DNA from: Aureispira anguillae
GTDB lineage: Bacteria > Bacteroidota > Bacteroidia > Chitinophagales > Saprospiraceae
Direction: 5' to 3'
Assembly (NCBI RefSeq): GCF_026000115.1
Contig: NZ_AP026867.1
Location: forward strand, 5,258,001-5,322,000
Length of the DNA: 64,000 bases
The translations under genes were made by a program, and so were the position numbers. The notes beneath the pieces are model-generated. The model saw only the letters and a program-made list of their open reading frames with translations. It did not search any database and was not told the origin of the DNA. The stretch's first letter is position 1; the number at the start of each line of letters is the position of its first letter. Below, piece by piece: positions 7,329-61,506 of the stretch.

Positions 7329-9605
7329 ATGAGAAAATTATATATTTCCCTGCTCTTATCTGCTATGTTTGTAGGATTCGCCAATGCGCAGAAAACATTG
7401 CCATGGAAAAAGCGACTCAAAATGGCTCAAAATTTTGAGAAGGCTGGCGATTACTATCAAGCCGCAGTATACTATGAAGGCATCTATGCTGAAAAAAGCG
7501 ACAAACCTGAATATAGTTATCAAGCAGGTGTTTGCTATTATCTCTTACGTGATTATGCCAACACTGTCAAAACATTAGAACCTGTTAAGGATCAAAATGA
7601 TATTTACGACAAACCTGGCTATAAATACGCTGTAGCATTAAAACAAACAGGTCAGGCCGCAAAAGCCAAAAGTGCATTTGATCAATTTATAAAAAGCTAC
7701 CCTTCTACTAAAGATGACTATAAAGAGTTCAAAGAAGCTTGTGAAAATGAAATCAAAGGTTGTGACTTTGCCCTAAACAAAAAGAAACACACGAATGATG
7801 CAGTCAAAATAGAATTGTTAGATGCCAAAATAAATACCAACAAAACAGAGTTTGCTCCTATTCCTTTTGATGAGAATATTCTTTATTTCTCTTCGTCTAC
7901 AACAGGTGCGGCAAAGGTTTATCGTTCTCAAAAAAATGGGGACAATTGGTCTCGCCCTCAAGTGCCTAAAATTTTTGAAGGAAAAATGGCACGACCACAT
8001 TTTGGCAATGGTACCTTTACAGAAGATAATGAACGTTTTTATTTTACCCAATGTGATCTTCCCAATGGAAAACCTAATTGTGCGATTTATGTCATGAGCA
8101 AAATTAGCGCAGAGGAATGGTCTGATCCAGTTATGTTGCCAGACTATATCAATGAAGATGGAGCCAACACAACCCATCCTTGTGTAGTTACGACTGATGA
8201 TAAAGAAATTTTATATTTTGTTTCGGATCGAGAAGGAGGACGTGGAGGTTTAGACATTTGGTTCACGACAAGAACCGTTGGGAGTTCTAGCAATAATTTT
8301 ACGCTTCCTAAAAATTTAGGTAGAAACATCAATACATTTGGCGATGAAATTACCCCTAATTATGATAAAGCAGAGGGAGTGCTTTACTTTAGTTCAAATG
8401 GTCGTGTCAGTGCAGGGGGATTAGATATTTTTAAATCCAAAGGCGAGAAATTGCAATGGGAAATTGCTCAAAATTTAGGCTTTCCCCTTAACTCTGCTGC
8501 GGACGATCTTTATTACACGGTTAGTGAAGCCCATGGGGGTGGATACTTTGTGTCTAATCGCCTCTTAGCTCCTAAAAAAACGGCAACAACAGACGATGAC
8601 ATTTTTTACTTTGGAGAAAACAAAATTATTGTAACAATTAGTGGGGCGATTACAGATGCCAATTACCCTGACAATGGTCCCTTAACAGATGTGAACATCA
8701 AGCTATTTAATGAAGATGAGTTGGTTGAGGAACGTATGTTATCCATTGCCGAATATCGTTTTAAATTAGGTCCAAAAAAACAATATACCATAGAAATATA
8801 CAAGGAAGATTACAACTTAGCGAGCTTTGATGTCAATACAAGTAATTTTGAATACTCTGAAGATGTTGTTAAAGATGTAGCGCTTGAAATTCCAAAAGAA
8901 GACCCCATCCCAACAGTACCAGACGATCCAGAAGAAGTGGATTGGGATGCCGTAAAAGCTCAAATTGTTCCACCTGAATATGATTCTAGAGATAATCCAT
9001 ATAGTTTTCCAGAAGAACCCTTTGACCCTCTTACAGGTGAAGAATATGTTGGTCCTTATTTAGAGGTTTATAATGAGATCAAAAATGATGTTGCCAACTT
9101 ATCCAATGAAAGTAAAGTTTATTACGATGGTCCTGATGGTGAATTACTACCTTATATGGGAGATGTTTTTGACGATGTTGTAGAAGAACCTATTGTTGAT
9201 ACTCCCATCGAAAAGATTTATCCAGACGATGAACTAGCACCAGAAGGTACTGTTTACAAAATTCAAGTTTCTGCTGTTCGACGCTTTAAGAGTTACAAAT
9301 ATGATGCGTTAGGAGAAGTGGGTAAATTGGCTTTTGAGGACATTGATGATGGAATTAGACGAGTGATGGTCGTTCCCGAAGAATTAACCGACGATGGTCT
9401 AGAAGGATTCAAATCTAAAGGAGATGCCTTAAATACACTTTCGTATGTCATTAACAATACTCGATTTGAAAATGCATTTGTCATCAAAGTAGTTAATGGC
9501 GAACGAGTTGGAGAAGGATTTAGAGGTTGGGATGAAGAGGAAAATAGTTCTTCAGATTCAGAAAGTACAGAAAACAATGTGAATGAAGATTATGAAGGTT
9601 TTTAG
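7329..9605 (+). CDS. PorE-like TPR / PD40 / CRD protein with C-terminal SPOR-like domain
   Basis: A 758-aa exported protein. The start at 7329 is chosen because MRKLYISLLLSAMFVGFANAQ is a clean signal peptide. The order is TPR repeats (about 25-150), PD40/WD40-like beta-propeller blades (about 170-430, with repeated LYFSS / GGLDI motifs), a carboxypeptidase-regulatory-like fold (about 435-530), an acidic Pro-rich linker, then VYKIQVSAVRRF...GFKSKGDALN...AFVIKVVNGE near the C-terminus, which fits a SPOR peptidoglycan-binding fold. T9SS PorE has the same first three modules but ends in an OmpA domain. A tandem paralogue follows at 9876. A periplasmic or outer-membrane, wall-anchored location is likely; a role in T9SS is inference. 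Confidence 0.8.
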   Translation: MRKLYISLLLSAMFVGFANAQKTLPWKKRLKMAQNFEKAGDYYQAAVYYEGIYAEKSDKPEYSYQAGVCYYLLRDYANTVKTLEPVKDQNDIYDKPGYKYAVALKQTGQAAKAKSAFDQFIKSYPSTKDDYKEFKEACENEIKGCDFALNKKKHTNDAVKIELLDAKINTNKTEFAPIPFDENILYFSSSTTGAAKVYRSQKNGDNWSRPQVPKIFEGKMARPHFGNGTFTEDNERFYFTQCDLPNGKPNCAIYVMSKISAEEWSDPVMLPDYINEDGANTTHPCVVTTDDKEILYFVSDREGGRGGLDIWFTTRTVGSSSNNFTLPKNLGRNINTFGDEITPNYDKAEGVLYFSSNGRVSAGGLDIFKSKGEKLQWEIAQNLGFPLNSAADDLYYTVSEAHGGGYFVSNRLLAPKKTATTDDDIFYFGENKIIVTISGAITDANYPDNGPLTDVNIKLFNEDELVEERMLSIAEYRFKLGPKKQYTIEIYKEDYNLASFDVNTSNFEYSEDVVKDVALEIPKEDPIPTVPDDPEEVDWDAVKAQIVPPEYDSRDNPYSFPEEPFDPLTGEEYVGPYLEVYNEIKNDVANLSNESKVYYDGPDGELLPYMGDVFDDVVEEPIVDTPIEKIYPDDELAPEGTVYKIQVSAVRRFKSYKYDALGEVGKLAFEDIDDGIRRVMVVPEELTDDGLEGFKSKGDALNTLSYVINNTRFENAFVIKVVNGERVGEGFRGWDEEENSSSDSESTENNVNEDYEGF

Positions 9606-20794: not shown

Positions 20795-22618
20795 ATGAGC
20801 AATTTCGTAGTATCAGCAAGAAAATATAGACCTATTCGCTTTGATGATGTTGTTGGCCAACAGCATGTATCTCAAACCCTAAAGAATGCTATTCAGAGCA
20901 ATCATTTAGCGCAGGCGTTTTTATTTTGTGGCCCTAGAGGGGTCGGAAAAACAACTTGTGCCCGTATTTTAGCGAAAGTGCTCAATTGCCAAGCGCCAAC
21001 GGAAGCAATGGAACCTTGTGATACCTGTGAGTCTTGCCAATCGTTTAACAACAATGCTTCTTTAAATATTTCTGAGCTGGATGCTGCATCCAACAACAGC
21101 GTTGAGCATATACGAGCATTAATTGAACAAGTGCGTTTTGCCCCACAAAGTGGACAATACAAAATCTATATTATAGATGAGGTACACATGCTTTCTCAGC
21201 AGGCCTTTAATGCTTTTTTAAAAACGCTAGAGGAGCCTCCTGCTTATGCTATTTTTATCTTAGCAACCACGGAGAAACATAAGATAATTCCTACGATTTT
21301 GTCTCGCTGCCAAATATTTGATTTTAATAGGATTCAAGTCGCAGATATGGCTGCGCATTTGCAGCGTATTTGCCAAGAAGAAGCAATCGAAGCAGAAGAA
21401 GAGGCACTAAATGTTATTGCTCAAAAAGCAGATGGGGCACTTCGAGATGCACTTTCTATTTTTGATAGAATTGTTAGCTTTTCTGGAAACTCCATTGCTT
21501 ATAAAGATGTTATTGAAAACCTTAACATCCTAGATTATGATTATTATTTTAAAGTAGTCGAAGCCATCTTAACTGAAAATGCCAGTCAGCTACTTTTGTT
21601 GTTTGACCAAATTTCTAGAAAGGGGTTTGATGGCGATATTTTTGTTAATGGTTTAGCCGAACATCTGCGAAATTTATTGGTTTGTAAGGACGCAAAAACC
21701 TTAGAGCTATTAGAAGTTAGTGGTAATATCAAAGATCGCTATCAACAGCAAGCCGCCTTGGTTCCAATGGCTTTGGTTTTATCAGCACTGAGCATCGCCA
21801 ATGACTGCGATGTCAATTATAAAATGGCTAGAAATAGCCGTTTGCACGTTGAAATGGCCTTGATAAAAATGGCTTACATCCAACGTGCCATGCGCCCCCA
21901 GGTAACCGTTGCTGCACCCTTAGAAAAAAAAACGGTAGACGATAATATTCCCAATACCCTTCAAGATACAGCACCTAATTATTCGCCTCCACCAGTAGAA
22001 AAAAACGTCATTGAGCCTCAGAAAGAAACCACCAAAACAACGACCACTAGTTCTATTGATTCAGCTCCTAAAGCAGAGTTAAAATCTGACAACAAGCCTG
22101 TTTCAATGCCTGAAACGGTTAAAGTATCTAGTAATTTTGCTGAAAAATTAGCCAAAAAAGCAGGCAATGGTTTCTTATCTAAAATAACAGACCAGGTAAA
22201 AGAGGAACAAGAACAACCTGCTGAAGAAGCAATGCCCTTTACGCTAGATAACCTAGAAATTATCTGGAAACAATATTGGTCGGCTATCGAGTCTCAATCT
22301 ACTCAAATTCTATTCAAAACGGCTCAATTATCCATTTTGGATGAAGAAAAGGGAACCCTCAAAATAGTAACGGCAGGGAACAGAGCCAAAGATGCTATCT
22401 TTAGGGATCGAGCGGTTCGACAACTACTGATTAATACTTTTCAGAAGAAAGAACTTAGTTTTGAAGTCGAAATTGATCAAACTAAAATAGAAACGCCTAA
22501 ACCTCAAAAAATGATCCCACAAACTGACCGTGAAAAATACGTCCATTTTTTAAAACTGAACCCTGTGCTTAAAGAATTTCAAAAACGTTTCCAATTATTA
22601 CCCCCAAAGAATAATTAA
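20795..22618 (+). CDS. dnaX: DNA polymerase III subunit gamma/tau
   Basis: A 607-aa clamp-loader ATPase. Walker A is GPRGVGKTT (46-54), the zinc site is Cys65 with C75, C78 and C81, Walker B is IIDEVHML, and the SRC sensor/arginine-finger motif follows the TTEKHKIIPTILSRCQ stretch. The N-terminal 360 residues are the loader domain; a Pro/Thr/Lys-rich linker (about 370-440) leads to a C-terminal tau-type domain. No obvious poly-A slippage site for gamma was identified. Start ATG at 20795. Confidence 0.96.
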   Translation: MSNFVVSARKYRPIRFDDVVGQQHVSQTLKNAIQSNHLAQAFLFCGPRGVGKTTCARILAKVLNCQAPTEAMEPCDTCESCQSFNNNASLNISELDAASNNSVEHIRALIEQVRFAPQSGQYKIYIIDEVHMLSQQAFNAFLKTLEEPPAYAIFILATTEKHKIIPTILSRCQIFDFNRIQVADMAAHLQRICQEEAIEAEEEALNVIAQKADGALRDALSIFDRIVSFSGNSIAYKDVIENLNILDYDYYFKVVEAILTENASQLLLLFDQISRKGFDGDIFVNGLAEHLRNLLVCKDAKTLELLEVSGNIKDRYQQQAALVPMALVLSALSIANDCDVNYKMARNSRLHVEMALIKMAYIQRAMRPQVTVAAPLEKKTVDDNIPNTLQDTAPNYSPPPVEKNVIEPQKETTKTTTTSSIDSAPKAELKSDNKPVSMPETVKVSSNFAEKLAKKAGNGFLSKITDQVKEEQEQPAEEAMPFTLDNLEIIWKQYWSAIESQSTQILFKTAQLSILDEEKGTLKIVTAGNRAKDAIFRDRAVRQLLINTFQKKELSFEVEIDQTKIETPKPQKMIPQTDREKYVHFLKLNPVLKEFQKRFQLLPPKNN

Positions 22619-27949: not shown

Positions 27950-29434
27950 TTAATAAATGACAACCTCAATGGTATCCAATTTCATACGTGTTTGAAAAAA
28001 CCTTTCCATTCTCTTTTTTTGTTCCGTTCTTATCCTCCTGCCTTTCCAATTAATAACAACCGTTGGCAAAGTATCTAAGGTTTTGGTTGCCGTGTTCATC
28101 TTTACCAATTCATTGTAGGCAATTTCTACAGCATCTGGATACAACGTTGAAAATTCTAATGCAATATCATCAACAGGCTTGCTAATTTGTTTGTGATGAC
28201 TTTGGTATTTTGACAATTCAGCTTCTAAAAACTTGATGCGTTCTGTCTTATTCTTGAGCACAATTTCATTATCTTCATAGAGCTTTTTAAGCATGCCAGA
28301 ATATTCTTCTCGAATTGTAGTAAACTTGGTTTGTAAGTTTTGCACTTCAGCCAACAATACCTCTACATCTAAATTACCTTCTCTAAATTCCAATTTAGCA
28401 TTCCCCAGTCCTACTTCTGTCATTTCATGAAATAAGTTGTCTTTGTCGCTTTCTCGAATCCCTCCTGATGTAATTAATGTAATAGTGGGCGTGTCCCGTC
28501 TATAATCAGCCTTCTGATCGATAATAACTCCTTTTTCTAAGTGGTACTCTTCCACTTTAGCCTCAAACAAAGCAGCCTTGCTATTAAACAGCTCTCTTTG
28601 TACCAAATTATATCCTGTCCAAAGACTAGGAATAATGGTAAAAATAGCAATTGCAACCAAAATTAATTTATAACGTTGTTCCCGAACAGGGTCCAAAAAT
28701 TCTTTTTTAGGAAACTGAAAAGCACGAACAAACACCAAAGATGTTCCTGCGATAAATACAGAATTAATAAAAAACAAGTAAAAAGCGCCCCCTGCATAAG
28801 CCCACTGAGCGGTTGCAATTCCATATCCTACCGTACACAAAGGAGGCATTAGAGCCGTCGCAATTGCCACACCAGGAATCGCATTTCCTCGATCTGATCT
28901 AGAACTTGCTACAATTCCAATCGCACCACCACAAATAGCAATCATTACATCATAAAAAGTCGGATAAGTTCGAGCCTCTAATTGATCGGTTAGTGTCTTA
29001 ATAGGGGAAATCGAAAAATAGACGATTGAAGCTAAAATCGAACCAACAATAAAGATAACTAAATTTCGAAACGCATACTTTAAGGTATCAAAATCATTGG
29101 TTGCCAAAGCATAACCAATTCCAACAATTGGTCCCATTAATGGAGATATTAACATGGCTCCAATTACAACTGCTCCCGAATTCATATTCAGACCAATAGC
29201 AGCAATAAAAGCAGCAAAAATTAGTCCCCATAAATTTCCTCCCTTAAATTCTATACTCTTATGAATGCTTTCAATTGTTCCAGCCTCATCTGTATCTAAA
29301 TGTAAATTGAACAGTTCCTTAAGCTCATTAATGGCTCTAGATATTAAATATACGGCCGTTGAATGCTGATGCTCAATTTCTTTCTCTTTTGGTTGAAGTG
29401 GTTCATTTTTGTCAGGTGTTCTATTTTCTTCCAT
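27950..29434 (-). CDS. DUF389 integral membrane protein
   Basis: A 494-aa protein with a hydrophilic N-terminus (about 1-65), then the DUF389 core (about 66-270) carrying about six transmembrane helices with NSGAVVIGAMLISPLMGPIVGIGYALATND and RGNAIPGVAIATALMPPLCTVGYG. After it comes a long soluble C-terminus with a coiled coil near 370-420. The role is unknown; related proteins are proposed membrane transport or sensing components. Start ATG at 29434. It precedes the methyltransferase at 26767. Confidence 0.88.
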   Translation of the reverse strand: MEENRTPDKNEPLQPKEKEIEHQHSTAVYLISRAINELKELFNLHLDTDEAGTIESIHKSIEFKGGNLWGLIFAAFIAAIGLNMNSGAVVIGAMLISPLMGPIVGIGYALATNDFDTLKYAFRNLVIFIVGSILASIVYFSISPIKTLTDQLEARTYPTFYDVMIAICGGAIGIVASSRSDRGNAIPGVAIATALMPPLCTVGYGIATAQWAYAGGAFYLFFINSVFIAGTSLVFVRAFQFPKKEFLDPVREQRYKLILVAIAIFTIIPSLWTGYNLVQRELFNSKAALFEAKVEEYHLEKGVIIDQKADYRRDTPTITLITSGGIRESDKDNLFHEMTEVGLGNAKLEFREGNLDVEVLLAEVQNLQTKFTTIREEYSGMLKKLYEDNEIVLKNKTERIKFLEAELSKYQSHHKQISKPVDDIALEFSTLYPDAVEIAYNELVKMNTATKTLDTLPTVVINWKGRRIRTEQKKRMERFFQTRMKLDTIEVVIY

Positions 29435-30852: not shown

Positions 30853-31126
30853 TTCTTCCCTTTAGGTCGAATTCGTAATTGGCTAGAAAATGAATCTACA
30901 ATTGCGAATAGCACCTTATTATTTTACCATAATTATGTATTCGCAGTTGTAGTTCGCCTAAAAAATTCTAAAAATCCCTAAAAAATAAACATACAATGTT
31001 GCGAAAAAAAAATAACATAGAGCATCCACTCCGCTCTTAATTGGTAATAACTTTTTCTCTTTTACAAAAAATATTCTGCTTTGTATTTGTTCTAATAAAA
31101 TAGAACAGCAAAACCAGATGCCCACT

Positions 31127-31230
31127 AGCGATGTAGCTTAGCTGGTTAACTATGCTTGCGGTCTCATAAGCGGTAGCGCACTAAAGCGTTTGACTGATAC
31201 TCAAAAGATCATAGGCTCAAGTTATACTTC
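31127..31230 (+). pseudogene. Decayed tRNA-Ile(GAT) with an insertion in the D loop
   Basis: The anticodon arm TTTGA-CTGATAC-TCAAA (31189-31205) gives anticodon GAT. The D stem can form from GCTT and AAGC only if about 35 nt between GGTTA and AAGC are removed. That insert is flanked by ACTA at both ends and itself contains a CTCATAA loop like a Met-type anticodon. The T arm (ATAGG...TATAC) pairs poorly, and no proper 3' acceptor strand follows. It is the first element of the array and looks non-functional. Confidence 0.45.
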
Positions 31231-31234
31231 ATAA

Positions 31235-31306
31235 GATGGTGTGGCGCAATGGCAGCGCAGGGGATTGTCTATCCTCAGGTTGCGAGTTCGAGTCTCGTCA
31301 CCATCG
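31235..31306 (+). tRNA. tRNA-Asp(GTC)
   Basis: Acceptor GATGGTG/CACCATC, D stem GCGC/GCGC, anticodon loop TTGTCTA, T arm GCGAG-TTCGAGT-CTCGT, discriminator G. CCA is not encoded. Confidence 0.92.
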
Positions 31307-31398
31307 CAATTACAAATTGGATCAAGTAGGTATAAGCCCCGAATTATTTACAAATAGAATAATTCTTAAGGACAATCTATGCCCATACTGATCAATAT

Positions 31399-31473
31399 AG
31401 AAACATAGCTCAGTTGGTTTAGAGCACTTGGTTTACACCCAAGCGGTCATAGGTTCGAATCCTATTGTTTCTA
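31399..31473 (+). tRNA. tRNA-Val(TAC)
   Basis: Acceptor AGAAACA/TGTTTCT, D stem GCTC/GAGC, anticodon stem CTTGG/CCAAG with loop TTTACAC, T arm ATAGG/CCTAT, discriminator A. CCA is not encoded. Confidence 0.93.
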
Positions 31474-31482
31474 CTTTTTAAT

Positions 31483-31556
31483 GGTACTATAGCTCAGCTG
31501 GTCAGAGCGTTGGTCTGAAAAACCAAAGGTCCTTAGTTCAACTCTAAGTAGTACCA
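31483..31556 (+). tRNA. tRNA-Phe(GAA)
   Basis: Acceptor GGTACTA/TAGTACC, D stem GCTC/GAGC, anticodon stem TTGGT/ACCAA with loop CTGAAAA, T arm CTTAG-TTCAACT-CTAAG, discriminator A. Confidence 0.94.
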
Positions 31557-31564
31557 CTATTCTT

Positions 31565-31610
31565 GCTCGTTCACTTTCAATTGTGTCTAATGGCACTCGT
31601 AAATAACGAG
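31565..31610 (+). repeat. Intergenic hairpin element, copy 1
   Basis: A 46-nt element between tRNA-Phe and tRNA-Lys. CTCGTT pairs with AACGAG at the ends, and an inner GTGTC/GGCAC-type stem has a TAA-rich loop. A second version is at 31807-31852 between tRNA-Asn and tRNA-Thr. Confidence 0.6.
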
Positions 31611-31625
31611 AATATTAAAACAACT

Positions 31626-31699
31626 GAACTGGTAGCTTAGCTGGCTAAAGCATCTGACTTTTAATCAGAAGACCGTGGGTTCGAATCCCACTCGGTTCA
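31626..31699 (+). tRNA. tRNA-Lys(TTT)
   Basis: Acceptor GAACTGG/TCGGTTC (two G-U pairs), D stem GCTT/AAGC, anticodon stem TCTGA/TCAGA with loop CTTTTAA, T arm GTGGG/CCCAC, discriminator A. Confidence 0.93.
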
Positions 31700-31725
31700 C
31701 ACAATATAACTAAATTATAACCATT

Positions 31726-31799
31726 GGATTGGTAGCTCAGTTGGTTAGAGCGTCTGACTGTTAATCAGAACGTCGCAGGTTCGAGTCCTGCCCAGTCCG
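31726..31799 (+). tRNA. tRNA-Asn(GTT)
   Basis: Acceptor GGATTGG/CCAGTCC, D stem GCTC/GAGC, anticodon stem TCTGA/TCAGA with loop CTGTTAA, T arm GCAGG/CCTGC, discriminator G. Confidence 0.95.
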
Positions 31800-31806
31800 C
31801 TATTTA

Positions 31807-31852
31807 GCTCGTTCAATTTCAACAGTGCCTAAAGGCACTAGTAAACAACGAG
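31807..31852 (+). repeat. Intergenic hairpin element, copy 2
   Basis: A 46-nt element related to 31565-31610: outer stem CTCGTT/AACGAG, inner perfect stem AGTGCC-TAAA-GGCACT. It lies between tRNA-Asn and tRNA-Thr. The shared shape suggests a processing or stability element in the array transcript. Confidence 0.6.
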
Positions 31853-31866
31853 GACAACTTTTATTT

Positions 31867-31940
31867 GCCAACATAGCTCAGCTGGTTAGAGCAGCTGATT
31901 TGTAATCAGCAGGTCGGGGGTTCAATTCCCTCTGTTGGCT
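31867..31940 (+). tRNA. tRNA-Thr(TGT)
   Basis: Acceptor GCCAACA/TGTTGGC, D stem GCTC/GAGC, anticodon stem GCTGA/TCAGC with loop TTTGTAA, T arm GGGGG-TTCAATT-CCCTC, discriminator T. Confidence 0.94.
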
Positions 31941-32141
31941 CTAACTTAACTGTACTAAAAATAATAAGATACAATGAATAAAGTATTGTACGCTGATTGT
32001 CATCAAGATTTTTTAACGATTAAAAATGGTTTTGTGGTTTTGCGTCTTGTGGTATTTGATTAACAACCTATAACATATATACTCTGGTTGTTACTACAAT
32101 AATAATCCATTCGCATCCATTTTAGCAAAACCTACTAATAT

Positions 32142-32227
32142 GGTGGTGTATACAAGTGGTCAAAGTAGCTAGGCTTTCAACCTAGTCCAAATTATTGAGT
32201 TCGCGGGTTCGAATCCCGTCGCCACTA
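32142..32227 (+). tRNA. tRNA with Glu anticodon (TTC) and a long variable region
   Basis: Acceptor GGTGGTG/CGCCACT, a three-pair D stem TAC/GTA with AAGTGGTCAAA loop, anticodon stem CTAGG/CCTAG with loop CTTTCAA (anticodon TTC), a 17-nt variable region, T arm GCGGG-TTCGAAT-CCCGT, discriminator A. The D arm and variable region are of the class II (Ser/Leu) shape, which is not expected for Glu. It folds well, so it is probably a real tRNA; the amino acid it receives is uncertain. Confidence 0.75.
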
Positions 32228-32254
32228 CGATGAATGCTAGTAATTTTCCAGAAT

Positions 32255-32341
32255 GGTATCCGTGTGCGAGCGGTTTAAGCAAGTAGATTGTGACTCTACT
32301 GGACGATAAGTCCGTCACAGGTTCGAATCCTGTCGGGTGCC
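32255..32341 (+). tRNA. tRNA-His(GTG) with a long variable arm
   Basis: An eight-pair acceptor including an encoded G-1 opposite C73 (the His identity pair), D stem TGC/GCA with GAGCGGTTTAA, anticodon stem GTAGA/TCTAC with loop TTGTGAC (anticodon GTG), a variable arm with stem GGAC-GATAA-GTCC, and T arm ACAGG-TTCGAAT-CCTGT. Histidine tRNAs normally have a short variable loop, so this is a class II shape on a His tRNA. Confidence 0.8.
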
Positions 32342-32624
32342 CGATTCTGAGTAAGTTTTGTATCCTGTTATATAAGGCTTATCTCCATTAAGAAGTTTAT
32401 TGATTATGTTTTGGAGAACCATAATTAATAGATTCAACAATTAATGATCGATGGTATAATACCGTGAATCAAAACAGAAAAAGTTCTTAAACCAAAGTGA
32501 TTTAATCATCACTTGTTGTCCAACAAAAAGTAGAGTAAAGATTAGCGTAGCAATTCCCTAATTGTGCCGTTACAATCGCCAACTACTACAGGGCAACAGG
32601 CAGGCTGTTTGTCTGTCTATATTT

Positions 32625-32707
32625 GGAGGATTGGCCGAGTGGTAAGGCACTTCCCTGCTAAAGAAAGGTTTCCTAGCGGAACATAGGTTCGATTCCTATA
32701 TCCTCCT
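32625..32707 (+). tRNA. tRNA-Ser(GCT), irregular anticodon stem
   Basis: Acceptor GGAGGAT/ATCCTCC, D stem GCC/GGC with GAGTGGTAA, loop CTGCTAA giving anticodon GCT, a long variable arm with TTCC/GGAA, T arm ATAGG-TTCGATT-CCTAT, discriminator T. The anticodon stem pairs poorly (C-A mismatches, or an 8-nt loop if shifted by one), so function is less certain than for the other members. Confidence 0.75.
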
Positions 32708-32724
32708 TTTTTACCATAACGACT

Positions 32725-32811
32725 AGAAAGGCAAGCCAATTGGTGGTGGCCACAGTCTTGAAAACTGTTCGGAGTTAATGACTCGTGTGGGTTCGACTCC
32801 CACCCTTTCTA
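32725..32811 (+). tRNA. tRNA-Ser(TGA)
   Basis: Acceptor AGAAAGG/CCTTTCT, D stem GCC/GGC with one extra base between acceptor and D stem, anticodon stem ACAGT/ACTGT with loop CTTGAAA, long variable arm with GAGT-TAATG-ACTC, T arm GTGGG/CCCAC, discriminator A. Confidence 0.85.
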
Positions 32812-32820
32812 CCATTATTT

Positions 32821-32894
32821 AAGGGTATAGCTCAATTAGGCAGAGCATTGGTCTCCAAAACCGAAGGTTGTAGGTTCGATCCCTACTGCCCTTG
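32821..32894 (+). tRNA. tRNA-Trp(CCA)
   Basis: Acceptor AAGGGTA/TGCCCTT, D stem GCTC/GAGC, anticodon stem TTGGT/ACCGA with loop CTCCAAA, T arm GTAGG/CCTAC, discriminator G. Confidence 0.93.
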
Positions 32895-32944
32895 CTAAAT
32901 AATTTGATGATTCAAATTATAACTAAACCATAAAATTTAAGTAC

Positions 32945-33018
32945 TCAGGTATGGCTCAATTGGTTAGAGCGCTGGACTTTGACTCCAGAGATTGTAGGTT
33001 CAATTCCTTCTACCTGAT
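32945..33018 (+). tRNA. tRNA-Gln(TTG)
   Basis: Acceptor TCAGGTA/TACCTGA, D stem GCTC/GAGC, anticodon stem CTGGA/TCCAG with loop CTTTGAC, T arm GTAGG-TTCAATT-CCTTC with one T-T mismatch, discriminator T. Confidence 0.9.
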
Positions 33019-33027
33019 CTAATTTAT

Positions 33028-33102
33028 ACGGGAGTAGCTTAACAAGGCTAAAGCGCTAAGTTTGGGACTTAGAGGATGCAGGTTCGATCCCTGTCACCCG
33101 TA
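33028..33102 (+). tRNA. tRNA-Pro(TGG), copy 1
   Basis: Acceptor ACGGGAG/CACCCGT with one A-A mismatch, D stem GCTT/AAGC, anticodon stem CTAAG/CTTAG with loop TTTGGGA, T arm GCAGG/CCTGT, discriminator A. A copy differing at one base lies at 33832-33906, on the other side of the 75-bp repeats. Confidence 0.9.
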
Positions 33103-33145
33103 CTATAATGGTAGCTTTTTTTGACCTGCTATTCTTGAGCAATCA

Positions 33146-33733
33146 ATGCCCGCTTTGCGGTTCATTCGCTTAAAGGTCTTTCTAGACCTTTATTTTGAGC
33201 TGCGCTCTTTTAAGGCTTTAATGCCCGCTTTGCGGTTCATTCGCTTAAAGGTCTTATTAGACCTTTATTTTGAGCTGCGCTCTTTTAAGGCTTTAATGCC
33301 CGCTTTGCGGTTCATTCGCTTAAAGGTCTTATTAGACCTTTATTTTGAGCTGCGCTCTTTTAAGGCTTTGATGACCGCTTTGCGGTTCATTCGCTTAAAG
33401 GTCTTTCTAGACCTTTATTTTGAGCTGCGCTCTTTTAAGGCTTTAATGCCCGCTTTGCGGTTCATTCGCTTAAAGGTCTTTCTAGACCTTTATTTTGAGC
33501 TGCGCTCTTTTAAGGCTTTAATGCCCGCTTTGCGGTTCATTCGCTTAAAGGTCTTTCTAGACCTTTATTTTGAGCTGCGCTCTTTTAAGGCTTTAATGCC
33601 CGCTTTGCGGTTCATTCGCTTAAAGGTCTTTCTAGACCTTTATTTTGAGCTGCGCTCTTTTAAGACTTTGATGACCGCTTTGCGGTTCATTCGCTTAAAG
33701 GTCTTTCTAGACCTTTATTTTGAGCTGCGCTCA
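33146..33733 (+). repeat. 75-bp tandem repeat, about 7.8 units, inside the tRNA array
   Basis: Units begin at 33146, 33221, 33296, 33371, 33446, 33521, 33596 and 33671; the last stops after about 62 bp. Each unit holds three consecutive hairpins: CCGC-TTT-GCGG, an 8-bp stem AAAGGTCT/AGACCTTT with a 4-nt loop, and GAGC-TGC-GCTC. The loop of the middle hairpin varies (TTCT or TATT) while the stem is constant. Units 4 and 8 start ATGACC instead of ATGCCC. Because 75 is divisible by three, one frame stays open (a 25-aa repeat, 203 aa in all), but I consider it non-coding. Confidence 0.92.
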
Positions 33734-33747
33734 AAAATCGCTCATTC

Positions 33748-33821
33748 ACCTTCATAGCCCAACTGGTAGAGGCGGTAGGTTTAGAACCTATTTAGTGTGA
33801 GTTCGAATCTCACTGAAGGTA
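33748..33821 (+). tRNA. tRNA-Leu(TAG) with a short variable loop
   Basis: Acceptor ACCTTCA/TGAAGGT, D arm GCC/GGC, anticodon stem GTAGG/CCTAT with loop TTTAGAA (anticodon TAG), 5-nt variable loop TTAGT, T arm GTGAG-TTCGAAT-CTCAC, discriminator A. Bacterial Leu tRNAs normally carry a long variable arm; this one does not. Confidence 0.85.
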
Positions 33822-33831
33822 CTAACAACAT

Positions 33832-33906
33832 ACGGGAGTAGCTTAACAAGGCTAAAGCGCTAAGTTTGGGACTTAGAGGATGCAGGTTCGATTCCTGTCA
33901 CCCGTA
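33832..33906 (+). tRNA. tRNA-Pro(TGG), copy 2
   Basis: Identical to 33028-33102 except for one base in the T loop. The same acceptor A-A mismatch and anticodon loop TTTGGGA are present. The near identity indicates recent duplication. Confidence 0.9.
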
Positions 33907-33922
33907 CTATTTTTTTTATGTT

Positions 33923-33996
33923 GCAAATGTGGCCCAACTGGCTAAGGCACCTGGTTTCCACCCAGAAGATTGTGAGTTCGAATCTCACCATTTGCT
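33923..33996 (+). tRNA. tRNA-Gly(TCC)
   Basis: Acceptor GCAAATG/CATTTGC, D arm GCC/GGC, anticodon stem CCTGG/CCAGA (one C-A mismatch) with loop TTTCCAC, T arm GTGAG/CTCAC, discriminator T. Confidence 0.88.
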
Positions 33997-34001
33997 CTAC
34001 T

Positions 34002-34075
34002 GCTCTAATAGCCCAATTGGCAGAGGCGTGCGGCTTAAACCCGTTTTAGTATAGGTTCGAATCCTGTTTAGAGCA
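34002..34075 (+). tRNA. tRNA-Leu(TAA) with a short variable loop
   Basis: Acceptor GCTCTAA/TTAGAGC, D arm GCC/GGC, anticodon stem TGCGG/CCGTT (T-T mismatch at the outer pair) with loop CTTAAAC, 5-nt variable loop TTAGT, T arm ATAGG/CCTGT, discriminator A. Same architecture as the other two Leu tRNAs here. Confidence 0.82.
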
Positions 34076-34095
34076 CCACAAATTAGTAACCAAAA

Positions 34096-34169
34096 GCCTT
34101 TGTAGCCCAATTGGAAGAGGCAATAGATTCAAAACCTATACCGTGTGAGTTCGAGTCTCACCAAAGGCA
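34096..34169 (+). tRNA. tRNA-Leu(CAA) with a short variable loop
   Basis: Acceptor GCCTTTG/CAAAGGC, D arm GCC/GGC, anticodon stem ATAGA/CCTAT (A-C at the closing pair) with loop TTCAAAA, 5-nt variable loop ACCGT, T arm GTGAG/CTCAC, discriminator A. Confidence 0.82.
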
Positions 34170-34192
34170 CTTTTTGTATACAATTATGATCA

Positions 34193-34265
34193 GGGACAGT
34201 AGCTCAATTGGCTGAGCATCTCGTTTGCAACGAGAAGGATGCGGGTTCAAATCCCGCCTGTTCCA
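34193..34265 (+). tRNA. tRNA-Ala(TGC)
   Basis: Acceptor GGGACAG/CTGTTCC, D stem GCTC/GAGC, anticodon stem TCTCG/CGAGA with loop TTTGCAA, T arm GCGGG/CCCGC, discriminator A. Confidence 0.95.
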
Positions 34266-34273
34266 CTACCTTA

Positions 34274-34345
34274 CGCACGGTGGTGTAAAGGCAAACATCA
34301 AGGTCTCATAAGCCTTGGCTATGGGTTCGAGTCCCGTCTGTGCGT
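34274..34345 (+). tRNA. tRNA with CAT anticodon (Met, or Ile2)
   Basis: Acceptor CGCACGG/CTGTGCG, three-pair D stem GTG/CAT, anticodon stem AAGGT/GCCTT with loop CTCATAA, T arm ATGGG-TTCGAGT-CCCGT, discriminator T followed by CCA in the DNA. It lacks a mismatched 1-72 pair, so it is not an obvious initiator. Elongator Met and lysidine-modified Ile2 cannot be separated by eye. Confidence 0.82.
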
Positions 34346-34348
34346 CCA

Positions 34349-34767
34349 ATTATTTATTTCTTAATCTTGTAGATGATAACACCTTATTGGTTGGAAGAAG
34401 TATGGTGCTAACCCCTCTAAAAAATTCCAATGGTAAATCGTGTAGCTCTACGCTAAATTCAATGTCATGTTTTGGCTTATTCTTATCGCAATACTGGTCG
34501 TTGATTGCTCTTTGGGAGAATATTCTCCATAATGCAGCTTTATATTGCCTACGAATTAAACAATCGGTCTCGTAGCAGAGTAATCAATGGCTCCAGTTTG
34601 AAGTACCTTCCTTCAACTAAATTTAGCTATGATTAAGAAAAATAAAGAATCACTAAAAAAGGAGGTGCTTATCTAATATTTGATCTTGGGTCAATTTATA
34701 TTTTCTTTAAAAGGACTAAAAAAGTAGGTACTTATTGACCCATTTTCAAATTACCTTACTTTTAAAT
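34349..34767 (+). other. Gap in the tRNA array before tRNA-Arg
   Basis: 419 bp with no tRNA recognised. A 14-bp palindrome GGAGAATATTCTCC lies at 34515-34528. An 8-bp stem GGGTCAAT (34688) / ATTGACCC (34734-34741) encloses a loop that contains one of two similar AAAAAAG.AGGT.CTTAT segments. The open frame at 34315-34575 overlaps the Met tRNA and is not called. Confidence 0.45.
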
Positions 34768-34841
34768 AGCTCTATCGTCTAACTGGATTAGGACTGCAGA
34801 ATACGAATCTGCCAATTGGGGTTCGAATCCCTATGGAGCTA
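34768..34841 (+). tRNA. tRNA-Arg(ACG), last gene of the array
   Basis: Acceptor AGCTCTA/TGGAGCT, D stem GTCT/GGAC, anticodon stem GCAGA/TCTGC with loop ATACGAA, variable CAAT, T arm TGGGG-TTCGAAT-CCCTA, discriminator A. Its 3' end is the start of an 86-nt block repeated at 37143. Confidence 0.92.
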
Positions 34842-34913
34842 CTAATTAGGATGGTGTTTTATGACGTTTTTTTACGTTTTCTGCGGCTACAACGGTGTTG
34901 TGGCCGTTTTTTT
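34828..34913 (+). repeat. Direct repeat block, copy 1 (tRNA-Arg 3' end plus terminator)
   Basis: An 86-nt block starting in the T stem of tRNA-Arg. It aligns without gaps to 37143-37228: 20 of the first 27 bases and, by eye, nearly all the rest match (two differences in the last 64). Confidence 0.85.
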
Positions 34914-37417: not shown

Positions 37418-37774
37418 CTAATTTTCGGTTTTACTCATTGTTTCTTTTCTATGCTGAGTGCCCCATTCTACCATCGCCTCAAGAATAGGTTCTAGTGTTT
37501 TGCCTGATTCTGTTAATTCATATTCTATTCGAATAGGTCTTGTATTATAAACATTTCTTTGGACAATATTATTTAACTCTAACTCCTTGAGTTCTTTTGA
37601 AAGCATTCTAGGAGTTATTTTTTTTATTGTTGTTTCTAATTCATTAAAGCGTTTTGGACCAAAAAAAAGCGCCCCAATTATTGGAACTTTCCACTTTCCA
37701 TTTAATACCGTTAAGCAATCGTGTAATGCTAATATTGTTGCCGCTGGACACTCAGGAATATTTCTAGGATTCAT
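37418..37774 (-). CDS. HxlR-family transcriptional regulator
   Basis: A 118-aa winged-helix protein with the HxlR signature CPAATILALHDCLTVLNGKWKVPIIGALFFGPKRFNEL and ITPRMLSKELKELELNNIVQR. Cys9 and Cys20 flank the first helix; a redox- or aldehyde-sensing Cys at this position is known in HypR/YodB-type members. It is divergent from an NmrA-type oxidoreductase with a perfect palindrome between them, the usual arrangement of an HxlR regulator and its target. Confidence 0.92.
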   Translation of the reverse strand: MNPRNIPECPAATILALHDCLTVLNGKWKVPIIGALFFGPKRFNELETTIKKITPRMLSKELKELELNNIVQRNVYNTRPIRIEYELTESGKTLEPILEAMVEWGTQHRKETMSKTEN

Positions 37775-47751: not shown

Positions 47752-49287
47752 TTATAGATAGCGAGGCATATAAATAATACTTGTCTGAGGCAACAAGTTT
47801 TGCAGGTTAGTATGTTCAGAAGAATTCAAACTAATATCATTCATCCAAAAATGAAGCACTTTTAAGTTTTTAAGCTTTCCTATAGCTGTAGAAACACTTG
47901 AAATATTGTTATCAATTAAACTCAAGGTTTCCAAATTATCCATCAAAGAAAGTGTTTCAAATAAAGCATCTAAATGAAGTGCTGGATTATTCCCTAGCTC
48001 TAGTTCTTTTAGATTATTTAATTGTTTAATCTCTTCGTCTACCTTTTCCAAACCATTACTACTCAAAATCAGCGTTTCTAAGCTTTTTAGTTTAGCAATA
48101 TTAAAGAACGCCTGTTTCCAATCCATATTGGGGTTAGATCCCAAATGTAAATACTTAAGTTGACTAAGATGGATAATTTCTGAAGGTAGTTTTTGTATAT
48201 CATTATTGGAGACATCCAATTGCTGTAATGGTTTAATTTGAGACAGTTGCTTAAAAGCCGACTCCCAATTCATTTCAGGGTTTTGTTTTACATCCAATGT
48301 CTTCAAATTTTTTAAGCCTACAATATTAGGGGGCAAATCAATCAACCTGTTATTAATTAGATTTAAAACGACTAACTTATTCATTCTTTGAGGCTGTAAA
48401 AACAAGGTCAGCCAATTCATATTGGGGTTTCCTTCCAAATCTAAGCTTCTTAGGTTAAAAAGCCCTGAAAAGCCCTTGGGCAAGTACAATAAGTTGTTAT
48501 ATGCCAATCCAAGTGTTTGCAAATTTTTAAGTCCTCTAATCGATTGGGGCAAAGTAGTCAGATTGTTCCCTCCTAAATTGAGCATTCTCAAATTGCTCAG
48601 TTGACCGATTTCTGACGGCAATTCTGTCAAATAATTATTCCACAAATATATTTTTTGTAATTTTTGGAGTTTTTTAACCGTAGAGGTTAGCCTTCTCAAC
48701 TGATTGTTGGATAAATCTAATTCTCTCAAATTGCGTAAATTGCCAATTGTTGGAGGTAAATTAATCATTCGATTCCCCCAAATCAACAACTTTTCTAAGC
48801 TCCCTAAATTGCCAATATTCGGAGGTAAATCTTTGATGCGATTATTGCCTATATCCAACAGTTTGAGCTGACTCAAATGCGTCAAAAACTCAAATGTCAA
48901 TTCCCAATCCAAATTAGGATTTCCAACCAAGATTAGTTCCTCTAGGTTTTCCAATTGGGTAATTGATTCAGGAAGCTTCTCGATTTTATTCTCACTAAGA
49001 CTCAGTTTTTCCAAATTAGGTAATTGAGCCAATAGATCTAAGGTAATATCCCAATCTAAGTCAGGGTTCCCCCCCAATTGCAATTCTTTCAAATTCTGAA
49101 ACTGGACAATAGTAGGGGGCAATTGGGTCAATTCATTATGATCCAAATACAGTTTAAATACCTTCTTAGGCGTTTGTAAAGCCTCTTTTATATTATAAAA
49201 AATTCTTGTTCCTCCCCCGTCATTTCCGTATTGCCCTAACAAGTTGGTACTCATTAAAAGGATAACTAGAATGCTAATCAACTTCAT
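47752..49287 (-). CDS. Leucine-rich-repeat exported protein
   Basis: A 511-aa protein with a signal peptide (MKLISILVILLMSTNLLGQ) and about 18 leucine-rich repeats of roughly 23 residues (L..L.LS.N.I..LP..I..L..L), with repeated GNPNLDW insertions every second or third repeat. The solenoid fills almost the whole chain; no enzymatic domain or T9SS C-terminal signal is visible. It probably mediates binding at the cell surface or in the periplasm. Confidence 0.88.
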   Translation of the reverse strand: MKLISILVILLMSTNLLGQYGNDGGGTRIFYNIKEALQTPKKVFKLYLDHNELTQLPPTIVQFQNLKELQLGGNPDLDWDITLDLLAQLPNLEKLSLSENKIEKLPESITQLENLEELILVGNPNLDWELTFEFLTHLSQLKLLDIGNNRIKDLPPNIGNLGSLEKLLIWGNRMINLPPTIGNLRNLRELDLSNNQLRRLTSTVKKLQKLQKIYLWNNYLTELPSEIGQLSNLRMLNLGGNNLTTLPQSIRGLKNLQTLGLAYNNLLYLPKGFSGLFNLRSLDLEGNPNMNWLTLFLQPQRMNKLVVLNLINNRLIDLPPNIVGLKNLKTLDVKQNPEMNWESAFKQLSQIKPLQQLDVSNNDIQKLPSEIIHLSQLKYLHLGSNPNMDWKQAFFNIAKLKSLETLILSSNGLEKVDEEIKQLNNLKELELGNNPALHLDALFETLSLMDNLETLSLIDNNISSVSTAIGKLKNLKVLHFWMNDISLNSSEHTNLQNLLPQTSIIYMPRYL

Positions 49288-50022: not shown

Positions 50023-51564
50023 ATGCAAGACAAATTTGAAATCCTCTCCAACAAAATAGCTGAAGCCAAACTAGGTGGTGGTGAAAAAAGAATAGAAAAA
50101 CAACATCAGAAAGGAAAATTAACTGCTAGGGAACGAATTCATTTTTTATTGGATGAAGGTTCTTTCGAAGAAATTGGAATGCTTGTTACACATCGATGTG
50201 TAGATTTTGGCATGGAAAAGCAGAAATTTTATGGAGATGGTGTAGTAACAGGATATGGTACTGTCAATGGTCGATTGATCTATGTCTTTGCTCAAGACTT
50301 CACCGTTTTTGGTGGATCACTATCTGAAACCCATGCAGAAAAAATTTGCAAGCTAATGGACATGGCTCTTCGCAACGGAGCGCCCATCATTGGTCTAAAC
50401 GATTCGGGAGGTGCCCGTATTCAAGAAGGTGTTCAATCTTTGGGAGGCTACGCTGATATTTTTTACCGAAATACGAGAGCATCAGGAGTAATTCCTCAAA
50501 TTTCAGCTATTATGGGTCCCTGTGCTGGTGGAGCGGTTTATTCTCCTGCTATAACCGATTTCATTTATATGGTGGAAAATACTTCTTATATGTTCATCAC
50601 AGGACCTAATGTTGTTAAAACAGTAACCAATGAGGATGTTACGTCTGAGGAGCTAGGAGGTGCAATGACGCATGCCACCAAATCGGGAGTAACACATTTT
50701 ACTGCTGCCAATGATATTGATTGTATTAATCAACTCAAACAGTTACTCTCTTATATCCCTCAAAATTGTGAAGAGGAAACTCCTCGTTTGGCTTATACTC
50801 CTGGCAAAGAGGAACGCCCTGCATTAGATAACATCCTTCCTGATAGTGCTAATGTGCCTTATGATATGCGAGAAGTCATCGGAGAAATCGTAGATGCAGA
50901 TTCTTTCTATGAAGTGAATAAGGATTATGCCGAAAATATTCTAGTGGGTTTTGCTCGTCTAGGCGGTAGAGCAATTGGAGTAGTTGCCAATAATCCAATG
51001 ATTTTAGCAGGATGTTTAGATGTCGATTCTTCTAGAAAGGGAGGTCGCTTTGTTCGCTTCTGTGATAGCTTCAATATTCCTTTGTTGGTGCTAGAAGATG
51101 TTCCTGGATTTTTACCTGGTACCGATCAAGAATGGAATGGAATTATTACCAATGGCGCTAAGTTATTGTATGCTTTTTGTGAGGCAACTGTTCCTAGAAT
51201 TACGGTTATCACCCGTAAAGCTTATGGCGGAGCTTATGATGTAATGAACTCAAAACATATTGGTGCCGATCTAAATTATGCTTGGCCTACTGCTGAGATT
51301 GCCGTAATGGGTGCGAAGGGGGCTAGTGAAATTATTTTCCGCAATGAAATTCAAAATGCTGAAGATCCTGCTGCAAAATTAGCTGAGAAAGAAGCAGAAT
51401 ATGCTCAAAAATTTGCCGACCCTTATCGTGCTGCTTTCCGTGGTTTTGTAGATGAAGTAATTGAACCTAACCAAACTAGACAGAAATTAATCAGAGCATT
51501 CAAAATGCTAGAAAATAAAGTAGACAAATTGCCAAAGAAAAAACATGGTAACTTGCCTTTATAA
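50023..51564 (+). CDS. Acyl-CoA carboxylase beta (carboxyltransferase) subunit
   Basis: A 513-aa biotin-dependent carboxyltransferase of the propionyl-CoA/methylmalonyl-CoA family. [55 protein letters not shown] and the C-terminal [15 protein letters not shown] are diagnostic for the acyl-CoA/carboxybiotin site. The biotin carboxylase and carrier partners are not in the window. The biotin ligase gene is 6.5 kb away and not linked. It ends in a terminator at 51572. Confidence 0.93.
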
Positions 51565-59493: not shown

Positions 59494-61506
59494 ATGGAAC
59501 AAAAAAATTCACCTAGTAATAAACCAAAGTTTAATGCATATTGGTTCTATGCTATTATAGCGGTGATACTTATCTCTCTCAATCTGTTTAATTTAACAGG
59601 CTCTGTACCTGACATAACGATGTCCAAACTAACCGAACTTATCAAAAAAGGGGATGTTGGTAAAATCGTTGTGATTAGTACTGGAGAGCAGAGCAAGTAT
59701 GCCGAAATTTATATTGACAAAGACAAGCTTTCAGACAAAGCTTATGAAGACGTAGCAAAATCAACAATTGGCACTGGCAACCCTGGCCCTCATTACAAAC
59801 ATACGATTGTTGTTGTTGAAAATTTTATAGAAAAAGTAGATAAAGCTAAAGCTGAATTTTTGGCAGCAAATCCAGATGCTGAAGATATTCCAATTACAGC
59901 AGATACCAAAGGAACACTTACTGGTATTATCATGTGGTTGTTTCCTTTCATTTTACTAATTGCTATTTGGGTATTTTTCATGCGTCGTGTTGGCGGCGGT
60001 GGCGGTGGTGCTGGCGGTCAAATCTTTAACATTGGACGTTCTAAGGCAACGCTATTTGATAAAGACACTAAAGTTAACGTTACCTTTAAGGATGTTGCTG
60101 GTCTTGATGAAGCAAAAGAGGAAGTAATGGAGGTCGTTGATTTCTTACGTTCGCCCAAAAAATATACCGTTTTAGGGGGTAAAATTCCTAAGGGAGTTTT
60201 GTTAGTAGGCCCTCCTGGTACAGGTAAAACCTTACTGGCTAAAGCTGTAGCAGGTGAAGCGGATGTTCCTTTCTTTAGTATTTCGGGTTCAGATTTTGTC
60301 GAAATGTTTGTTGGAGTTGGTGCATCTAGAGTTCGTGACTTGTTCCGTCAAGCTAGAGAAAAAGCTCCTTGTATTATTTTTATTGATGAAATTGATGCCA
60401 TTGGTCGTGCTAGAGGTAGAAATTCTATGCAAGGGAATGATGAGCGTGAAAACACCTTAAATCAGCTTTTGGTAGAAATGGATGGTTTTAGCACTGACAA
60501 AGGAGTAATCCTTGTTGCTGCGACCAACCGCCCTGATATTTTAGATACAGCGTTGTTGCGTCCTGGTCGTTTTGATCGTCAAATCGGAATTGGCAAACCA
60601 GACTTAGTTGGACGAGAACAAATTTTTAAAGTGCATCTAAAACCGATCAAAATCAGTGATAATGTAGATGCCAAAACATTGGCGATGCAAACACCTGGTT
60701 TTGCTGGTGCTGAGATCTCTAATATTTGTAATGAAGCGGCTCTTATTGCTGCTAGATACAATAAAACAGAAGTTGAAATGGAAGATTTCAACAAAGCTAT
60801 TGATCGAGTTATAGGTGGTCTTGAAAAGAAAAATAAATTGATTTCTCCTGAAGAGAAACGAGTGATTGCTTACCATGAAGCTGGTCATGCTATTAGTGGC
60901 TGGTTCTTAGAACATGCGCATCCTTTGGTTAAAGTAACCATTGTTCCAAGAGGCTTAACTGCTTTGGGATATGCTCAGTACTTGCCTAAAGAAAAGCATA
61001 TTGTTCCCAAACAACATCTGTTGGATCAAATGTGTGGCTTGTTGGCTGGACGTGCTGCGGAAGATATTGTCTTTGGACAAGTCTCAACAGGGGCTCAAAA
61101 CGATTTGGATCGTGTAACACAACACGCTTACAACTTGATTATGATTTATGGTATGAACGAAAAGGTTGGCAATGTTTCTTATTATGAAATGATGAAAAAC
61201 AACCAATTTGCTAAGCCTTACTCTGAAGCAACCGCTCAGTTGATCGATCAAGAAATTCGAAAAATTATTGACGAGCAGTATGCTAGAGCACTTCAGTTGC
61301 TAAAAGAAAAACGCAATGAGTTGGAATTACTCGCCAATGAGTTATTAAACAAAGAAGTGTTGCTCAAAGCTGATGTAGAGCATCTTATCGGAAAGCGTTT
61401 ATTTGACGACATTCCAGATGAAAAAAACGGCGAAAAAGCAGTTGGTGAAAACAATGGCGTTGACACCTTATTGGATAAAGATGATCTTCCTGACGAGATC
61501 CACTAA
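59494..61506 (+). CDS. ftsH: ATP-dependent zinc metalloprotease FtsH
   Basis: A 670-aa membrane protease. Helices lie near 12-30 and 145-163, followed by a Gly-rich linker. The AAA module has Walker A GPPGTGKT, Walker B IIFIDEID, second-region-of-homology Arg residues in [13 protein letters not shown], and the zinc-binding HEAGH motif in [11 protein letters not shown]. It degrades misassembled membrane proteins and some regulators. An rsfS-ftsH-LUD order is typical of Bacteroidota. It has a strong terminator at 61521. Confidence 0.97.

Follow-up and report, generated by a model that had tools for sequence, protein, structure and literature searches.

Putative Glu and His tRNAs with long variable arms in an apparently phage-type tRNA array on the chromosome of Aureispira anguillae

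Introduction

Bacterial tRNAs are split into class I and class II according to their amino acid, and a long variable arm is normally found on serine, leucine and tyrosine tRNAs. For allo-tRNAs, an acceptor branch with an 8/4 split is known. A 12-bp branch with a 9/3 split is also described for them in the accessible part of the literature. Allo-tRNA and tRNA-Sec share with the tRNAs reported here a long variable arm outside the Ser, Leu and Tyr isotypes, but in the available text (PMC7609411) they have a longer acceptor branch than the ordinary 7+5 bp of the Aureispira Glu and His genes.

The Anabaena trn operon and the Mycobacterium array units are, like the locus studied here, dense groups of more than 20 extra tRNA genes, and they are linked to plasmids and phages (PMC10272220, PMC5966550). 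According to the available sections of these reports, the Anabaena array is silent and is induced by translational stress, with TrcR as repressor (PMC10272220), while the Mycobacterium arrays have ties to phages and plasmids, with an L-array defined by at least 20 tRNA genes (PMC5966550), and have been called a putative antidefence system (PMC5966550, PMC12803027). Exchanged variable arms are not mentioned in these sections, whereas the Aureispira array has them and is chromosomal.

Phage tRNAs that resist host tRNases are also divergent tRNA copies. It has been argued, in the accessible text, that they escape anticodon nucleases through changes in the loop (PMC10264068), and for the T5 tRNA-Tyr resistance to retron-Eco7 was attributed to the variable loop (PMC13096335). 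In the parts available of these two papers and of PMC11555353, the change lies in the anticodon loop or within a tRNA-Tyr that is normally long-armed; in the Aureispira Glu and His genes it is the arm class itself that is swapped. Regarding the synthetases, the excerpted text of PMC9976931 states that the G-1:C73 pair transplants His identity, that tRNA-Leu without its long arm is still active, and that the main recognition features for GluRS1 of Acidithiobacillus ferrooxidans are the deletion of nucleotide 47 and an augmented D stem. No long-armed Glu or His tRNA of phages or arrays was found in the accessible portions of the literature consulted, including PMC7609411, PMC5733544, PMC13096335, PMC11555353, PMC6409571, PMC5966550, PMC10264068, PMC12482277 and PMC13191261. 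This search is weak on subscription papers and preprints, so novelty is to be taken as "not found" rather than as certain. Elements of the same type as the array have been described before; its exchanged arms, as far as seen, are new.

Results

The array and its chromosomal setting

The window, i.e. the whole 64,000-nt stretch of DNA that was analysed and to which all coordinates refer, lies within a 7.6-Mb contig of the 7.8-Mb Aureispira genome. It carries the following tRNA features.

31235..34842, + strand: tRNA array, 21 genes in 3.6 kb (ARAGORN; Rfam)
32725..32810, + strand: array tRNA-Ser(UGA), a type also present in nine stretches of viral contigs
33748..33821, + strand: short-armed tRNA-Leu(UAG), 5-nt variable loop (ARAGORN, sequence reading)
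34002..34075, + strand: short-armed tRNA-Leu(UAA), 5-nt variable loop (ARAGORN, sequence reading)
34096..34169, + strand: short-armed tRNA-Leu(CAA), 5-nt variable loop (ARAGORN, sequence reading)

The order of the genes is Asp Val Phe Lys Asn Thr Glu His Ser Ser Trp Gln Pro Leu Pro Gly Leu Leu Ala Met Arg. Rfam thresholds are passed at the same 21 places as those called by ARAGORN, with the tRNA model or, for one gene, the tRNA-Sec model. The latter gene is the tRNA-Ser(UGA), which scores 50.7 bits (cut-off 47) despite its UGA anticodon. Both the size of an L-array (at least 20 clustered tRNA genes) and its redundancy are found here, all 17 array isotypes having a copy elsewhere in the genome. 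The initial annotation, which dealt with the Glu and His genes, had overlooked that these belong to a 21-gene array and that the array also contains the reverse swap, all three of its tRNA-Leu genes having short variable loops.

The array is eroded in this genome, as its tRNA-Ile is broken and no tRNA-Tyr is called, which counts against a working set. Remains of the tRNA-Ile are seen at 31090-31222; three other Aureispira genomes (G003, G006 and G008) have an intact tRNA-Ile and an upstream tRNA-Tyr that is called. Between tRNA-Pro and tRNA-Leu, a 75-bp unit is repeated in 7.8 tandem copies (33145-33732), with related unit(s) in G003 and G008; the 203-aa ORF that covers this repeat (33146-33757) is probably an artefact. 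The Bacteroidota promoter pattern TTTG-N-TAnnTTTG matches six times in the window (4.6 expected), none of the matches being just upstream of the array.

A prophage was considered and rejected: among the tested flanking ORFs no phage structural or integration gene was recognised, the following phrog matches aside. A beta-lactamase-fold protein at 35246 matches phrog_382 (tail protein with lysin activity), phrog_22561 (minor tail protein) and phrog_13201 (unknown function), which we read as a shared domain. Phage matches were also given by two ATPases of cellular type, a DNA polymerase III clamp loader at 20795 and an FtsH-like protein at 59494. Phrogs of unknown function are matched by an LRR protein at 47752, a carboxyltransferase at 50023 and an ORF at 37418 (phrog_11195).

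Structure of the Glu and His genes

32142..32227, + strand: long-armed tRNA-Glu(UUC), A73 at 32227, no encoded CCA (ARAGORN, Rfam, sequence reading)
32142-32148/32220-32226, + strand: tRNA-Glu acceptor stem, 1:72 being G:U
32151-32153/32165-32167, + strand: tRNA-Glu D stem, 3 bp
32176..32178, + strand: tRNA-Glu anticodon UUC (sequence reading)
32186..32202, + strand: tRNA-Glu variable region, 17 nt, weak 3-bp stem
32255..32341, + strand: long-armed tRNA-His(GUG), G-1 at 32255, C73 at 32341 (ARAGORN, Rfam, sequence reading)
32256-32262/32334-32340, + strand: tRNA-His acceptor stem
32265-32267/32279-32281, + strand: tRNA-His D stem, 3 bp
32290..32292, + strand: tRNA-His anticodon GUG (sequence reading)
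32300..32316, + strand: tRNA-His variable region, 17 nt, 5-bp stem with one U:G

Glu and His anticodons had been reported on two adjacent tRNAs with three-pair D stems and 17-nt variable regions, and this description stands. Both genes are called by ARAGORN and by the Rfam tRNA model (54.5 bits for tRNA-Glu and 44.2 bits for tRNA-His, the gathering score being 29), and neither was assigned an ordinary short-looped cloverleaf. The anticodon and T stems are unbroken, with 5 bp each, and the acceptor branch is of the ordinary kind in both. Arm lengths throughout this study are taken from ARAGORN structures, ARAGORN being the sole tRNA finder applied to the viral loci as a whole.

These genes thus resemble canonical tRNA-His and tRNA-Glu in anticodon and acceptor-end identity, and differ from them by the 17-nt variable region and the 3-bp D stem. 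The His gene has GUG and the G-1:C73 pair but not the short variable loop, and the Glu gene has UUC and a host-type acceptor end. The features of tRNA-Ser (G73, a long variable stem and a Ser anticodon) are absent from both, as are those of GluRS1 substrates (deleted nucleotide 47, augmented D stem) from the Glu gene.

A Ser/Leu-like shape had also been proposed, and it holds for arm length. The three Aureispira versions of the His arm form stems better than shuffled sequences (0 of 500 shuffles as good). The stem of the Glu arm is at chance level (mean 3.00 bp, 3.28 expected), so that its likeness to Ser and Leu tRNAs is one of length and not of a firm helix. The variable stems of the three host tRNA-Ser sequences are 6-7 bp long, versus 3 bp in the Glu arm and 5 bp in the His arm.

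Amino-acid identity

Outside the array, 34 distinct host tRNA sequences were read, a list that is incomplete as tRNA-Ile GAU is missing from it, and all have the arm class usual for their isotype. Ordinary Glu (four copies) and His (two) tRNAs are short-looped, and Leu and Ser tRNAs are long-armed. The array is hence additional to the host set and follows different rules. The end of the long-armed Glu gene (G1:U72, G2:C71, U3:A70 and A73) is common to host Glu only and is seen in 0 of the 33 other host tRNAs. Among the 34 sequences, G-1 or C73 occurs in host His only. The three tRNA-Ser sequences have G73 and a G:C pair at 1:72, and neither long-armed gene matches them. A dedicated synthetase was looked for and rejected: the genome has a single full-length hisS, a single gltX and a single serS, all outside the window.

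The same positions were compared in the viral tRNAs described below. In the 38 distinct viral long-armed Glu genes, 1:72 is G:U in 26 and A:U in 7, and A73 is present in 35; in 27 viral short-armed Glu genes, G:U is found in 21 and A73 in 25. All three viral long-armed His genes have C73 and two have G-1. Of 20 viral tRNA-Ser genes, 18 have a G:C pair at 1:72; position 73 is G in 12 and U in 8. Viral long-armed Leu has 1:72 G:U in 19 and A73 in all of 35 genes. Since Glu and Leu are inseparable by end positions in the viral set, tRNA bodies were compared, with the anticodon loop and the variable region masked and isotypes ranked by their three best ordinary neighbours.

The cognate isotype ranked first for the long-armed bodies of Glu (30/38), His (3/3) and Asp (4/4), and for part of those of Met (5/8), Asn (3/6) and Thr (1/2). 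For the other isotypes it ranked first in 1/7 Gln, 1/5 Cys, 0/3 Ile, 0/3 Val, 0/2 Lys, 0/1 Trp, 1/3 Pro and 1/2 Ala, and it scored better than Ser, Leu and Tyr in 2/7 Gln, 1/5 Cys, 0/3 Ile, 1/3 Val, 0/2 Lys, 0/1 Trp, 1/3 Pro and 1/2 Ala. Bodies of this last group mostly lack resemblance to their cognate isotype. The Aureispira His body is closest to ordinary phage His. Among ordinary tRNAs, Glu is not the closest to the Aureispira Glu body; nearer are array Tyr (24.0) and the Phe of a phage (23.5), and the body comparison gave no single ordinary isotype as its source. It is as if another body had received a Glu end and anticodon, whereas the majority of viral long-armed Glu genes resemble Glu tRNAs to which an arm was added. 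There may thus be at least two routes to the same form.

Conservation within the genus and search in other bacteria

Sixty genomes were searched, including that of A. anguillae itself and eight others of the genus. Thirteen of the 60 matched, namely its own, three of the same genus and nine in which the match was limited to short segments of 21-32 bases. The Glu-His pair is thus found in four of the nine Aureispira genomes examined (its own, G003, G006 and G008), the whole stretch being conserved in the latter three at 94-95% over 201 nt, and the five other relatives gave no match to the pair. The flank at 28059-29347 is common to the window, G003 and G008 at about 80% identity, and the array is at one locus in all three. 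As the Glu and His genes are identical in G003 and G008, there are three distinct Aureispira versions.

The tRNA content of the array varies between Aureispira species. Compared with the other arrays, its tRNA genes have best identities of 0.65-1.00, mostly at least 0.85. Between versions, Glu is 97-98% and His 91-92% identical, whereas four other array spacers are 18-67% identical. The spacer between the two genes is itself conserved:

32228..32254, + strand: Glu-His spacer, 27 nt, 93% identity versus 18-67% for four other spacers

A 6-bp inverted repeat, CAGAAT/ATTCTG, flanks tRNA-His (32249-32254 / 32344-32349). Together, the conserved spacer and the repeat are perhaps a processing or regulatory element.

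Among the three versions, one of 20 pairs varies in Glu and three of 21 in His; none of these four has lost its pairing, and in two both sides have changed. When the three Aureispira His genes were compared with five phage ones, 97.0% of the 168 cells of the cloverleaf (G-1:C73 included) pair and 41 cells have changed on both sides, which 0 of 500 shuffles match; hence this cloverleaf is not due to chance. The encoded G-1 paired to C73, already pointed out in the initial annotation, is present in seven of these eight genes.

A pattern scan of bacterial genome contigs for long-armed His gave 32 stretches, only one of which, in another Aureispira, has such a tRNA; the pattern requires GAGCGG, so that variants are missed, including that of G003. 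With a long-armed Glu model, 395 Bacteroidia genomes were searched and, among the 30 best loci, only its own is a long-armed Glu, in a search with strict filters that scored 11 candidates per genome and does not prove absence. The own gene scored 83.4 bits and the next 68.9, the high score following by construction from its presence among the 40 sequences of the model. Another of these 30 loci, in a different Bacteroidia genome, is a long-armed tRNA-Lys(UUU). In a genome of the same family, a short-armed tRNA-Leu(UAA) is one of five tRNAs that lie together, perhaps as another array.

Relatives in phages

In viral contigs, a pattern scan for long-armed His returned five stretches, of which three are true (two with the same tRNA) and two are tRNA-Tyr. 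The scan for long-armed Glu returned 50, of which 44 are true, with 38 distinct sequences. Long-armed His is rarer than long-armed Glu, and it is also present in two of the long-armed Glu stretches. A search for the same combination elsewhere, suggested earlier, thus found the pair in three of eight congeners and side by side in a phage: in LR756500, an uncultured phage of 462 kb, only 21 nt separate a long-armed His gene from a long-armed Glu gene, and the His acceptor strand of this phage, GTATCTG, is the same in G003 and G006. A long-armed His gene with both G-1 and C73 is also present in the Microbacterium phage A3Wally, where it is annotated as tRNA-Val. Tandem long-armed Glu genes (UUC and CUC) are present in the viral contig L201, and its UUC gene gave the best score against the Aureispira genes.

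The two scans and Cellulophaga phage phi4:1_13 make up 56 viral loci (55 plus one) with 572 distinct tRNAs. In this selected set, where Glu is over-represented, a long arm is seen in 46 of 385 tRNAs of short-arm isotypes when Glu and His are left out, and 20 of 86 Ser, Leu and Tyr tRNAs have a variable region below 10 nt. Ten named phages, a small sample picked by similarity to the Aureispira array, have a long arm in 3 of 101 tRNAs of short-arm isotypes and a short arm in 5 of 26 of long-arm isotypes (all Leu); at least one swap is present in six of the ten, and short-armed Leu in four. Two of them, pEP20 and Patelgo, are in the set because they match the short-armed Leu genes of the array, and without them the counts are 3/80 long-armed and 2/18 short-armed, with swaps in four of eight. 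The arms of 83 odd viral tRNAs have a mean stem of 4.34 bp versus 2.80 bp when shuffled (0 of 1000), so that they are maintained structures; a benefit over a short loop is not thereby proven.

Other exchanged arms were seen in these loci. At 7719-7807 of phi4:1_13 there is a long-armed tRNA-Asn where the record has a single gene, labelled tRNA-OTHER, tRNA-Pseudo. The tRNA-Gly(UCC) of Vibrio phages VF16 and Chester is long-armed in both. Long-armed tRNA-Met is found in L067, L133, L147 and other viral loci, with a U:U mismatch at 1:72 in five of eight distinct sequences, as if those with the mismatch were initiators.

Discussion

Taken together, these data suggest that the two genes are probably working Glu and His isoacceptors of a phage-type array residing on the chromosome, charged with Glu and His, their long arm being tolerated, and belonging to a reserve set. 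Judged by sequence, the acceptor-end and anticodon identity of both has been kept, and charging by the host's own GluRS and HisRS would follow from it. This is one of the two options left by the initial annotation, normal His and Glu tRNAs with an unusual arm, and G-1/C73 of the His gene, the end of the Glu gene that matches host Glu only, and the ends kept in phages speak for it. The enzymes would then ignore and tolerate the long arm, which fits published HisRS and is doubtful for GluRS. Two of the three exchanges concern enzymes, HisRS and LeuRS, that do not need the arm, with Glu as the exception, and GluRS is the weak point of this explanation. By analogy with the Anabaena array, the set would most likely be a redundant reserve for times when the housekeeping tRNAs are damaged. 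The swapped arms (long on Glu and His, short on Leu) may in addition hide the set from tRNA-cutting defences, and they may have persisted because the part of the tRNA that some of these defences attack is altered. This last idea is left out of the probability that we give to the explanation as a whole.

The arm could also be a neutral by-product without benefit, unread by HisRS, LeuRS and perhaps GluRS. This is compatible with the working-isoacceptor explanation, and we consider it quite possible, if short of an even bet. Tolerance is known for HisRS and LeuRS (PMC9976931, accessible text), and swaps occur across many isotypes. The stems of the 83 odd viral arms, which exceed their shuffled counterparts, weigh on the other side as a sign of maintenance, without showing an advantage over a short loop.

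More tentatively, the exchange of arm class could be a widespread phage device that keeps identity and evades host tRNases reading or cutting the tRNA body, Aureispira keeping a protected reserve. Such a device would cover long arms on Glu, His, Asn, Asp, initiator Met and Gly, and the stripping of the arm from Leu.

It is unlikely that the genes are relics, i.e. phage-derived tRNA genes stranded on the chromosome, unmade or uncharged, and drifting. The broken tRNA-Ile, the tRNA-Tyr that is not called, the content varying between species, the host copy of each array isotype and the lack of a promoter match would fit such a decay. Drift is difficult to reconcile with Glu and His genes 91-98% identical between species beside four spacers at 18-67%, and with the four of four varying stem pairs that remain paired.

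Charging by SerRS through the long arm, with Ser inserted at His and Glu codons, was the other option of the initial annotation and finds no support here. Arm length and the 3-bp D stem are indeed those of Ser tRNAs, but the three host Ser tRNAs have G73 where these genes have A73 and C73, the acceptor ends of the two genes, 1:72 pair included, are those of Glu and His, their arm stems are of 3 and 5 bp instead of 6-7 bp, the viral versions retain Glu and His ends, and the viral UUC and CUC pair would mistranslate Glu codons at large; we regard it as very improbable. Likewise very improbable are decoys, uncharged tRNA-like baits that would occupy or absorb tRNA-cutting toxins: supernumerary genes of odd structure would suit this role, but a bait does not need the anticodon loops and identity ends that are retained.

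Under the explanation that we favour, that of working Glu and His isoacceptors, the class I/II rule is broken both ways with the amino acid seemingly unchanged. For annotators, odd-armed tRNAs call for caution as they can be mislabelled, like the tRNA-Pseudo of phi4:1 and the tRNA-Val of A3Wally. These genes reveal where in a tRNA change is permitted and constitute natural tests of recognition by GluRS, HisRS and LeuRS. They also suggest that changes of the anticodon loop might not be the only way for phage tRNAs to withstand tRNA-cutting immunity.
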